NCBI RefSeq assembly: GCF_000378345.1
Contig: NZ_KB899546.1
Span: 437,523-501,522, forward strand
Reading direction: 5' to 3'
Origin: Hirschia maritima DSM 19733
GTDB lineage: Bacteria > Pseudomonadota > Alphaproteobacteria > Caulobacterales > Hyphomonadaceae
DNA length: 64,000 nt
Below, piece after piece: positions 47,572-50,759 of the stretch; positions within the stretch are counted from its first letter, which is position 1, and the number at the start of each line of letters is the position of its first letter. The position numbers were made by a program, and so were the translations under genes. The notes under the pieces are model-generated. The model did no database searches, was not told the origin of the DNA, and saw only the letters and a program-made list of their open reading frames with translations.

Positions 47572-48390
47572 TTATGTATTGAAGGCCCGCGCAGAACGGC
47601 GAAGGGAAATCAATGCTTCGTCTAATATTTCTTGGTTTGCAGCGGCCACTATTTGTCCGCCTAATGTGGCTGGGTTACCTGCCCAGTCGGTCACAACACC
47701 TCCGGCATTTTCAATAACTGGTATAAGCGCCGCAACATCATAAGATTGTAAGCCCGCCTCTGCGACCATGTCCATCGTTCCGGCAGCTACGCGGGCATAT
47801 GCGTATGCGTCTAATCCATATCGAGTAAGTTTGGCCGTTGCGCGCAAATGTTCAAATGCACCGCGTTCTGGTGGCGTAAAGATAAAGTAGTCGGTCGTCG
47901 CAAGAATTGCATCAGTAAGTTTCGAGCAATCACGCGTTTTTAGAAGAGTCTTTTCTCCACCTTTTTTGATCATGTATGACCCAGAAGGTGTGCCGACATA
48001 CCGCTCTTCAAGATAGGCTTGATCTATCACACCAATGATCGACTTATTATCTTTAACAAGACCGATCAGTGTGGTCCAGACTGGGAGACCAGACATGAAG
48101 GCGCGAGTGCCATCAATTGGGTCTAGATACCAAGTCCATCCGCTAGTGCCGTCTTTATAGCCGTATTCTTCACCCATAATGGCATCATCTGGGCGCTCTT
48201 CATCGATTACCGCACGAATTGCACGTTCTGCAGCTTTATCTGCTTCTGTAACCGGGTCAAAGCCAGAGCTAGCCTTGTTGTCAGCTATTGATCCTTCACC
48301 TCTAAAATAAGGTAAGATAGCTTTTCCAGCTTCATCGGCTAGTTTTTCAGCGAAAGTGGTGAGTTCAAGAAGTGTGCTTGCATCAGTCAT
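47572..48390 (-). CDS. hisN: Histidinol-phosphatase, inositol monophosphatase-type
   Basis: A 272-residue phosphatase of the inositol monophosphatase superfamily. It shows SGFDPVTEADKAAERAIRAV, MGEEYG, the metal site WYLDPIDGTRAFMSGLPVWT, and the C-terminal GLQSYDVAALIPVIENAGGV with the third metal Asp. The RAFxSGxPxWTxLIGL stretch distinguishes HisN-type enzymes, which remove phosphate from histidinol phosphate in histidine biosynthesis, from SuhB (a paralogue at 61 kb has TNFLHGIPHF). No other his gene is nearby. It is convergent with the alpha/beta-hydrolase gene. Confidence 0.9.
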   Translation of the reverse strand: MTDASTLLELTTFAEKLADEAGKAILPYFRGEGSIADNKASSGFDPVTEADKAAERAIRAVIDEERPDDAIMGEEYGYKDGTSGWTWYLDPIDGTRAFMSGLPVWTTLIGLVKDNKSIIGVIDQAYLEERYVGTPSGSYMIKKGGEKTLLKTRDCSKLTDAILATTDYFIFTPPERGAFEHLRATAKLTRYGLDAYAYARVAAGTMDMVAEAGLQSYDVAALIPVIENAGGVVTDWAGNPATLGGQIVAAANQEILDEALISLRRSARAFNT

Positions 48391-48548: not shown

Positions 48549-48947
48549 TTAGGCAACGCCTTGGCCTTTGTTGTCTTCTTCAAGTGCTTTTGCAAGATCC
48601 AATAGACGACGACGTGGACGTTCACTCAAACGGTAGTAAGCACGCACAAGTTCTAGTGTTTCTTTCTGGGAAAGAATGTCACCTGAAAGTGTGTCATTGC
48701 CATCATTTGCAGGAGCTTGCTGACCATCTGGAGCTAGACCGTCGAAGAAATAGCTGACATTCACTGTCAAAGCATTTGCCAAATCAAATAGGCGGCTAGC
48801 AGTAATGCGGTTGGCACCACATTCATACTTTTGTATCTGTTGGAAACGCACACCAATTTCTGAAGCGAGATCTTGTTGGGTCATTCCAAGAAGACGACGT
48901 CTACGACGAAGGCGTTTTCCTACATAAATATCTACATCTGTTGCCAT
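48549..48947 (-). CDS. XRE-family helix-turn-helix regulator (PraR/SinR-like)
   Basis: A 132-residue DNA-binding protein. The Cro/CI-type helix-turn-helix fills residues 10-68: VGKRLRRRRRLLGMTQQDLA, then VRFQQIQKYECGANRITASR. A flexible linker and a C-terminal helical region follow (TLELVRAYYRLSERPRRRLL). This layout is common in alphaproteobacteria (PraR-like regulators controlling biofilm or quorum traits), but the target here is unknown. ATG 48947 has GGAG nine bases upstream and is preferred over the frame start at 48965. A candidate small RNA is divergently encoded 250 bases upstream. The 48948-49190 stretch shows no gene. Confidence 0.9.
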   Translation of the reverse strand: MATDVDIYVGKRLRRRRRLLGMTQQDLASEIGVRFQQIQKYECGANRITASRLFDLANALTVNVSYFFDGLAPDGQQAPANDGNDTLSGDILSQKETLELVRAYYRLSERPRRRLLDLAKALEEDNKGQGVA

Positions 48948-49197
48948 TTTTAACACTCCGACCATGCGGATACGCTGGATAACGTATCATTTAAAACCTG
49001 TCGGAGTTGACTGAGCAATCTACGGGCCAAGTGCAGGAAAAGCTCAAAAATATTTGATATCATGGTAAATTTAACCATGGAGACAGGGCTTGTACGAAAT
49101 AACTGGTCAATGGAAAGGCAGGGTTGTCGGAACTGCAAAAAATTTGAGCGCTTAATCAGAAAATCTAATTTCAGATGTGAATCTTATTGAGATTACC

Positions 49198-49314
49198 TAG
49201 GGATAGAAGGCATAAGGATTGGGCTGGCGTTCGCGCCGCAGACGTTCTGATTTGCTAGAACGTTTCCTCCCTATTGAAACTTTAAGGCCACGCTTTTGCG
49301 TGGCCGTTTTTTTT
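49198..49314 (+). ncRNA. Candidate structured small RNA with CCUCCC motif and own terminator
   Basis: There is no plus-strand gene upstream, yet a strong plus-oriented terminator ends here (49286-49314). Before it lie a GGCG-UUCG-CGCC tetraloop hairpin (49226-49237), a perfect 7-base stem ACGTTCT/AGAACGT with an 8-base loop (49242-49263), and UAGGGA at 49198-49203 that can close a multibranch by pairing with UCCCUA at 49268-49273. The same region exposes CCUCCC, an anti-Shine-Dalgarno motif typical of alphaproteobacterial small RNAs. The neighbours on both sides are minus-strand genes. The 5' end is a guess; a weak TTGAGC/TAATTT promoter pair lies upstream. It does not match 6S, SRP or RNase P RNA by eye. 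Confidence 0.6.
49286..49314 (+). terminator. Intrinsic terminator of the candidate small RNA
   Basis: GGCCACGC, TTTT loop, GCGTGGCC, then GTTTTTTTT: an 8-base perfect stem with eight T residues on the plus strand. On the minus strand no T-run follows the stem, so it does not primarily serve the convergent gene at 49324. Confidence 0.9.
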
Positions 49315-49323
49315 GGAGGAGCG

Positions 49324-50268
49324 TTACATGTTTGCAGGGGTTTTGGGAGCTATCATGGTTGCCCAAGTGTTAAGTTTTGCAAAAATTGAATTGATGTCAG
49401 ACTTCAACTTGTCTGCATTTTCAGTGAGAAGCACTTTGTCTTCATCTAGATAAAGCTTCCGATTTATTTCGATTTGCAGAGCGTGGCGCTGTTTTTCTGG
49501 CTTCCCTTGAGACTGGGTAACGTAACCACCTGCATAAGGGCGGTTTCTAGCAACAGAATACCCATGTGCTGAGAAGGCGTCTTCAATTTTTTGGGTTAAT
49601 TCAGCAGAACAAGATCCCCCAAACCTATCGCCCAATATGATGTCTGGATATTCAGAGCCGAGCTCACTTTGAGACGGCATGGAATGACAATCGATCAGAA
49701 ATGAAACACCAAAACGCACTCTCGTCTCATCGATCAGCTCGTTCATCGTTGTGTGGTAGGGCAAATAAATCGTTTGCAGACGCTTATTGATTTCTTCAGG
49801 TGTGAGTTTGCGTCCATAAATCTGTTTGCCTGAATATGCGATACGAGGAATACAACCCAACCCTGCCTGAACACGAGGTGTGCGATTGGGGCGCGGGGTT
49901 TTGATTGGCGGATCAATAATATGGGCGTCTAATTCGTTTGAAGCCCGATTTAGGTCTAAACAAGCTCGTCCCACTAAGGCGCGAATGAAGATTGAGCCAA
50001 GTTTTGGTGTCTGGTCAAATAAGAAGTCGACATATGCATCTTCGACTCGGCGCAAATCCATGTGGTCAGCAATGCAGGCACTGAAAAAGGATCGTGGGTA
50101 GCATCTTCCAGAGTGAGGAGAGGCAAATACCACGGGACTCGTTTGATGGTCGGGACGAGAAACAACATAACTATCTTCTGAATCATCGAGTATCTGCCGA
50201 CAGTTTAGGTCGGTCATTTGTTTTGATAGATGTTTGGATGAAGTGAGATTACTATGCATTCTTCCCAT
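49324..50268 (-). CDS. N-formylglutamate amidohydrolase family protein
   Basis: A protein of about 314 residues of the N-formylglutamate deformylase family (zinc-dependent; HutG-like or peptidoglycan-related). Motifs: VVFASPHSGRCYP near the start, LVGRACLDLNRASNELDAHI with the DxNR metal-site motif, FLIDCHSMPS with the second His, NRPYAGGYVTQ and ALQIEINRKLYLDED. It is adjacent to cpdR and divergent, a frequent alphaproteobacterial pairing; no hut genes are near, so histidine breakdown is not implied. Possible starts are ATG 50268 and ATG 50259 (GGGAAG close upstream); an ATG at 50217 would remove a non-conserved leader. Confidence 0.9.
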   Translation of the reverse strand: MGRMHSNLTSSKHLSKQMTDLNCRQILDDSEDSYVVSRPDHQTSPVVFASPHSGRCYPRSFFSACIADHMDLRRVEDAYVDFLFDQTPKLGSIFIRALVGRACLDLNRASNELDAHIIDPPIKTPRPNRTPRVQAGLGCIPRIAYSGKQIYGRKLTPEEINKRLQTIYLPYHTTMNELIDETRVRFGVSFLIDCHSMPSQSELGSEYPDIILGDRFGGSCSAELTQKIEDAFSAHGYSVARNRPYAGGYVTQSQGKPEKQRHALQIEINRKLYLDEDKVLLTENADKLKSDINSIFAKLNTWATMIAPKTPANM

Positions 50269-50399
50269 ATAATCCGTGACGTAGCGACATTGCAATCGGT
50301 GATGTTAAGGAAGTTGTATTAGAATCTTCATAGGAACTTTACTCAATTATGAGAAGTTTGTTACACTAAGAGTCAAACGGTGTGGTGAGATAGGACATT

Positions 50400-50759
50400 A
50401 TGGCCAAAATTATTCTTGCAGAAGACGATAATAGCTTGCGCGGTTTTCTTGTGAATGCGCTGAAAAAAGCCGGACACACAGTTCGTGACTATGATGATGG
50501 TGAAACTGCGCTGGGAGCGCTTCAAGAAGAAGTGTTTGATTTGCTTCTGACTGATATTGTGATGCCAGGGTTAGACGGTATTGAGTTGGCGCGTAAGGGT
50601 GCAGAACTAGATCCTGCAATGAAGATTGTATTTATCACAGGCTTTGCAGCTGTTGCATTGTCTAACGGTAGCCCCACACCAGCCGGTGCAAAAGTGTTGT
50701 CAAAGCCTTTCCACTTGCGCGAGCTTGTGGATGAAGTAGAGCGCGTAATGGCTGCTTAA
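50400..50759 (+). CDS. cpdR: Single-domain response regulator CpdR
   Basis: A 119-residue receiver-only protein matching CpdR almost throughout: KIILAEDDNSLRGFLVNALK, LLLTDIVMPGLDGIELARKG with phospho-acceptor Asp52, MKIVFITGFAAVAL and KVLSKPFHLRELVDEVER. In Caulobacter, unphosphorylated CpdR primes the ClpXP protease at the cell pole to degrade cell-cycle regulators, and CckA/ChpT phosphorylation turns it off. The C-terminus ends in Ala-Ala, as in Caulobacter CpdR. It is divergent from the amidohydrolase gene and followed by a strong terminator. Highly conserved, so the function is confidently transferred. Confidence 0.95.
   Translation: MAKIILAEDDNSLRGFLVNALKKAGHTVRDYDDGETALGALQEEVFDLLLTDIVMPGLDGIELARKGAELDPAMKIVFITGFAAVALSNGSPTPAGAKVLSKPFHLRELVDEVERVMAA

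Follow-up and report, generated by a model that had tools for sequence, protein, structure and literature searches.

The window analysed here is a stretch of 64,000 nucleotides from the alphaproteobacterium Hirschia maritima DSM 19733. At positions 49286–49314 it carries a Rho-independent terminator that faces the plus strand, and the genes on both sides of it lie on the minus strand, as a first-pass annotation made from the sequence had pointed out. That annotation concluded that the terminator must end a transcript with no protein gene, and the reading frames agree: the largest plus-strand open reading frame ending before the terminator has 42 amino acids, and another of 56 amino acids crosses it. 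The features of the locus are as follows, in coordinates of the window.

47572–48390: inositol monophosphatase family protein gene (Pfam), farther out on the XRE side
48549–48965, minus strand: XRE/HTH_3 protein gene (Pfam HTH_3), divergent from the sRNA gene
49187–49216, plus strand: putative promoter, with TTGAGA at 49187–49192, 18 bases, and CATAAG at 49211–49216; no PhaR-type box between them; placed by eye against relatives
49223–49314, plus strand: predicted alpha-R8 sRNA gene, ∼92 nt; RF00519 match, terminator-defined 3′ end
49223–49239, plus strand: 5′ hairpin with UUCG loop, stem 49226–49229/49234–49237, loop 49230–49233; seen in the predicted folds
49242–49263, plus strand: second hairpin, 7 bp (49242–49248/49257–49263), immediately 5′ of the 10-mer
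49263–49272, plus strand: alpha-R8 10-mer UUUCCUCCCU, containing the anti-Shine-Dalgarno motif CCUCCC at 49266–49271
49286–49314, plus strand: Rho-independent terminator, stem 49286–49305 (8 bp, 7 GC), T tract 49307–49314
49324–50295, minus strand: N-formylglutamate amidohydrolase (FGase) gene (PF05013, 226.5 bits), convergent with the sRNA gene
50400–50759: receiver-domain protein gene (Pfam), farther out on the FGase side

The two outer genes are taken here to be HisN-like (inositol monophosphatase family) and CpdR-like (receiver domain). The GGCG-UUCG-CGCC hairpin, the 7-bp ACGUUCU/AGAACGU hairpin and the CCUCCC motif, all named in the first-pass annotation, are present in the sequence, and the final pair of the second hairpin takes the first U of the 10-mer. 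The 5′ end of the sRNA, placed by a sequence resembling a −10 element and by the covarying 5′ hairpin, is uncertain within 49220–49231; a start near 49230 is an alternative, judged by the position of the 10-mer in SisA, where residues 33–45 are protected. A sigma-70 scan found no promoter at the sRNA, and the promoter at 49187–49216 is therefore an inference.

Family assignment and gene order

When scanned with Rfam at the families' own thresholds, the window gives a single match. This is RF00519 (suhB, described as mmgR) at 49237–49321 on the plus strand, covering the full model (1–77) and scoring 41.2 bits where the cut-off is 41. The pass is a bare one, but it does provide the named family that the first-pass annotation could not find. 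The locus is the only one in its genome above the RF00519 cut-off. Among 81 genomes (the window's own and 80 relatives), 70 have a match above the cut-off, and relatives reach up to 67.6 bits at the same locus. Weak RF00519 matches carry little meaning, as matches with E ≤ 10 occur in 14 of 14 control genomes, one of them above the cut-off.

The alpha-R8 family, in the available extracts of PMC12559287, has three hallmarks: a weak hairpin followed by the 10-mer UUUCCUCCCU in unpaired form, a terminator and, in most species, an adjoining FGase gene. The locus has the exact 10-mer after the 7-bp hairpin, the terminator and the FGase neighbour. The lone terminator thus very probably ends the gene of an alpha-R8/RF00519 sRNA, a relative of MmgR of Sinorhizobium and SisA of Caulobacter. 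With SisA of Caulobacter crescentus, as far as it is described in PMC12559287, the predicted RNA shares the 10-mer after a hairpin, the terminator, the FGase neighbour and sibling copies elsewhere in the genome. With MmgR of Sinorhizobium meliloti it shares RF00519. In the portions available of PMC8401924, PMC12542648 and PMC7143759, MmgR is described with three stem-loops, an anti-Shine-Dalgarno motif and Hfq association in Sinorhizobium, and it is 77 nt long, whereas ∼92 nt are predicted here.

Gene order was followed in a host-family set of 48 loci, one per genome (the window's own and 47 relatives), chosen by the best RF00519 match; one genome (G003) was left out, being a fragmented assembly whose top RF00519 match has E 0.48. 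The order HisN-like gene/XRE gene/sRNA/FGase gene/CpdR-like gene is kept in all 48 loci, and all 48 have the exact 10-mer. At 15 loci from other families of the order, the FGase gene and the CpdR-like gene are found in 13, and the XRE and HisN-like genes in none.

A different CCUCC-type sRNA, such as AbcR (alpha-R15), NfeR1 (alpha-R14) or one like SorX/SorY, might merely resemble alpha-R8. The borderline RF00519 score leaves some room for this, and with relaxed Rfam thresholds the same stretch weakly matches SorY (26.8 bits, cut-off 111), SorX (25.3, cut-off 46.6) and ncS54 (26.3, cut-off 43); these and the other relaxed matches are all below their cut-offs, the three named ones far below. Neither AbcR nor NfeR1 appears among the window's Rfam matches at own or relaxed thresholds, although Rfam may hold no models for them. 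The AbcR RNAs are said to be partly homologous to RF00519 in the text available of PMC7143759, and AbcR1/2 resemble the RNA predicted here in having CU-rich anti-Shine-Dalgarno motifs and in the control of nutrient uptake. However, as described there, AbcR1/2 are 114–120 nt long, have two motifs and lie in tandem beside lsrB; the locus studied here carries a single motif next to an FGase gene. Both that setting and the exact 10-mer are characteristic of alpha-R8, and the scores of up to 67.6 bits in same-locus relatives also argue against this alternative, which is quite improbable.

Covarying hairpins and the upstream helix

The segment 49219–49314 folds better than expected from dinucleotide shuffles (z −3.94, with 0 of 200 shuffles equally good). 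For the longer span 49198–49314, z is −2.47 and five of 200 shuffles are equally good. Conservation of the stems in related genomes, which the first-pass annotation had held to be decisive for its proposal, was assessed by covariation on an alignment of 48 rows (46 distinct). The counted structure, taken from G009, has 5 bp in the 5′ hairpin, 4 bp in the hairpin that precedes the 10-mer and 10 bp in the terminator. In this alignment 94.6% of cells pair, and changes on both sides are found in 14 of 19 pairs; on five measures none of 500 shuffles is as high, although the shuffles leave relatedness in. When the partners are slid by 1–3 columns as a control, pairing falls to 30–47%. The both-side changes occur in four of five pairs of the 5′ hairpin, which is poorly aligned in the window's own genus, in nine of ten terminator pairs and in one of four pairs of the middle hairpin. 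The hairpins and terminator, together with the family match, the 10-mer and the synteny, are what the analysis shows for this locus. In the predicted 92-nt RNA, CCUCCC is unpaired with a probability of 0.95–1.0, and the first three U residues of the 10-mer with 0.01–0.33. These three are thus predicted to be mostly paired, a point against the alpha-R8 reading, in which the whole 10-mer should be single-stranded.

The first-pass annotation also included a closing helix, UAGGGA/UCCCUA, as part of the RNA. If transcription started at 49198 or earlier, this helix would close the molecule and hide CCUCCC, which would make a switchable anti-Shine-Dalgarno element. The complement is indeed present and the minimum-energy fold of 49198–49314 uses it; over these 117 nt the probability of being unpaired is 0–0.1 for four of the CCUCCC bases and 0.63 for the other two. 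But a 6-bp upstream partner is found in only six of the 48 host-family loci, the window included, compared with a mean of 5.1 in shuffled upstream sequence, and it is absent in the two other genus members examined, G001 and G002. Moreover, the 5′ arm (49198–49203) is upstream of the putative −10 element, so the helix would need an earlier start, and the arm probably sits in the promoter rather than in the RNA. The closing helix was rejected as part of the RNA, and a switchable element of this kind is very unlikely.

Least likely of all, and hardly credible, is a bare terminator that stops plus-strand read-through near the convergent FGase gene and belongs to no stable sRNA: the T tract does end 9 bases short of the end of that gene, but the covarying 5′ hairpin and the exact 10-mer in 48 of 48 loci would have no role there, and in Caulobacter relatives linked to FGase have been proven to be sRNAs, according to the extracts of PMC12559287. 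The earlier proposal of a trans-acting, CCUCC-type sRNA that regulates translation stands as a prediction, supported by the family match, the covariation and the synteny; its closing helix and its unnamed status do not.

The putative promoter and the PhaR-type box

At mmgR, a conserved dyad between the −35 and −10 elements mediates control, with repression by AniA (PhaR) and activation by NtrC, as given in the available part of PMC8401924, and PhaR binds the mmgR promoter in gel shifts (PMC12542648, also in part). The box is therefore already known in Sinorhizobium. A comparable palindrome, TGCRNYGCA, starts 36–62 bases before the 10-mer in 42 of the 48 host-family loci. In shuffled upstream sequence it has a mean of 0.07 per 48 loci and a maximum of 2 over 500 rounds. 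Its flanks have the consensus cTtGcntTTTt before and ncaTAa after the palindrome. These counts concern related sequences and not independent events. Among the other families of the order, where two loci without an exact 10-mer (L021 and L029) were excluded from the promoter count, the box is at the equivalent place in seven of 13 loci and within 110 bases in 11. A further group of 80 publicly titled loci, overlapping the first set, has a usable 10-mer in 71, of which 63 have the box; of the eight without it, four carry a CGCA-form in its position.

The palindrome was not found at the sRNA promoter in any of the three genomes examined from the window's genus (G000, the window's own, and G001 and G002), nor in G010. 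G006 and G030 also lack it, but have CGCACTGCA at the same place. In G000 and G001 the UUCG hairpin contains CGCGCCGCA, which matches only a looser motif, at −30/−31, and was excluded from the count. The window's promoter thus differs from that of mmgR, where the PhaR(AniA)-bound dyad is described in the sources cited. What is added here is that the box is widespread in the host family and missing in three members of the window's genus.

Loss of the box through loss of the PHB genes was considered and rejected. Of 81 genomes, 74 have PhaR (PF07879) and 79 have PhaC, the PHB synthase (PF07167); the three genus members have both. In all three, TGCRNYGCA is also kept in the stretch that separates phaR from a divergently oriented short-chain reductase gene (L258:3764 in G000, L260:3620 in G001, and L262:3257 and 3309 in G002). 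The reductase gene, judging by its look, is presumably phaB. Two genomes go against a simple story: G005 keeps the box at the sRNA, yet has no intergenic box around phaR, and G012 has the box at the sRNA, but no PF07879 match in a genome that is 86% complete. A genome-wide search for the PhaR-type motif with one mismatch was uninformative, with 25 sites compared with 21 for the reversed control; the motif is palindromic, so each site appears on both strands.

In most of the host family, PhaR probably represses the sRNA gene by way of the box that separates −35 from −10. The window's genus appears to have lost this box, and expression of the sRNA there is therefore probably tied to another signal. 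A single sRNA promoter can be followed in this way across the host family: most loci retain the PhaR-type operator, one genus seems to have lost it, and comparing genera could therefore test whether PHB storage and the sRNA are linked. At the level of titles, the literature search found nothing on PhaR/AniA with this FGase-linked sRNA. The wider conservation of the box may already be in print, because a 2016 phylogeny paper and a 2018 promoter paper deal with mmgR. The genus-specific promoter change is the sole part that may be new.

Sibling genes and predicted targets

The window's genome has two further alpha-R8-like genes, at C1:501206–501289 (minus strand, 31.7 bits) and C1:502600–502685 (minus strand, 23.2 bits), both below the cut-off. 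The sibling genes of this genome (L002 and L008) are unannotated; each has a terminator and the core GGGCGUUUCCUCCCCC. In G001 two siblings lie close together in tandem (C1:1171234–1171319 and 1171499–1171582, minus strand; L040), and G002 has at least one (C5:183348–183448, minus strand; L041). Siblings in all three genomes show the variant core GGGCGUUUCCUCCCC with a terminator. In the five sibling copies GCCUC before the core can pair with GAGGC after it, which would close the molecule, and the predicted fold uses this pairing in four of the five; a second CCUCCC is near the 5′ end in three of the five. No PhaR-type box occurs within 130 bases before the core in the five copies. Nine loci that include the siblings (L002–L008, L040 and L041) gave no Rfam match at cut-off. 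Exact GGCGTTTCCTCCC is found in 72 of 81 genomes, in one to five copies each; the window's own sRNA is not among the carriers, as AACG precedes its core. Two siblings in the window's genome have the variant core UUUCCUCCCC, a difference from SisA as it appears in the available extracts of PMC12559287. It is possible, if somewhat doubtful, that Hirschia has uncoupled its alpha-R8 sRNA from PhaR and that this, with the variant-core siblings, represents a rewired circuit of carbon storage and nutrient uptake.

SisA and its siblings are alpha-R8 RNAs, mostly FGase-linked, and the 10-mer pairs with a TonB-receptor mRNA, as established with compensatory mutants (PMC12559287, as available in part). 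The segment at 49223–49314 on the plus strand very probably encodes the FGase-linked copy of this family. By the SisA mechanism, Hfq would help UUUCCUCCCU to pair with Shine-Dalgarno regions via CCUCCC, and translation of the paired mRNAs would be blocked; the main targets would be genes for nutrient uptake at the outer membrane, those of TonB-dependent receptors among them. The mechanism appears well grounded by homology, and the sRNA joins an already known family. A seemingly orphan intergenic stretch would thereby gain a named regulator, with a mechanism proven in a related bacterium.

The window's genome has five copies of AGGGAGGAAA, one being the sRNA itself. A perfect complement of the 10-mer with ATG within ten bases is found once in this genome, at C1:996854, before a TonB-dependent receptor gene. 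The best predicted target is thus of the same kind as that of SisA in the PMC12559287 extracts, but for Caulobacter there is proof of both the targets and the CrfA sponge, whereas the targets named here are predictions. In G001, of the same genus, a search for the perfect complement site gave no matches. The complement is found before an ATG in 64 of 81 genomes, compared with a reversed control that is not matched for Shine-Dalgarno character. Among 30 listed complement loci, 29 are outside the window's genome; seven of these were scanned and four are TonB receptors, which gives no rate because the loci were chosen partly by look.

The motif GGGAGGAA followed by ATG occurs at 24 sites in the window's genome, and 13 of these open reading frames of at least 100 amino acids. 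All 13 were scanned. They encode three TonB receptors, two DcaP porins, one MFS transporter and seven others, namely regulators, NuoD-like, MaoC-like, DUF885 and ATPase proteins and one without a family. Enrichment for TonB receptors was not significant against a Shine-Dalgarno-like control (GGAGGAA 5 of 65, AAGGAGA 1 of 57, one-sided p = 0.14), and enrichment was rejected as proof of the targets. In addition, the effect of MmgR in Sinorhizobium concerns PHB and phasins, with direct targets unproven in the portions of the mmgR papers available, which counts against the TonB-receptor reading. Taken with the SisA homology, blocked translation of nutrient-uptake genes is the most likely action of the predicted sRNA.

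Two DcaP-type porin genes in the window's genome are each near a regulator gene, one for a LuxR-type response regulator and one of the GntR/FCD type. At all four genes (C1:654012 and 654180; C1:1135840 and 1136812; L096, L097, L103 and L104), the Shine-Dalgarno sequence is GGGAGGAA, complementary to the sRNA seed.
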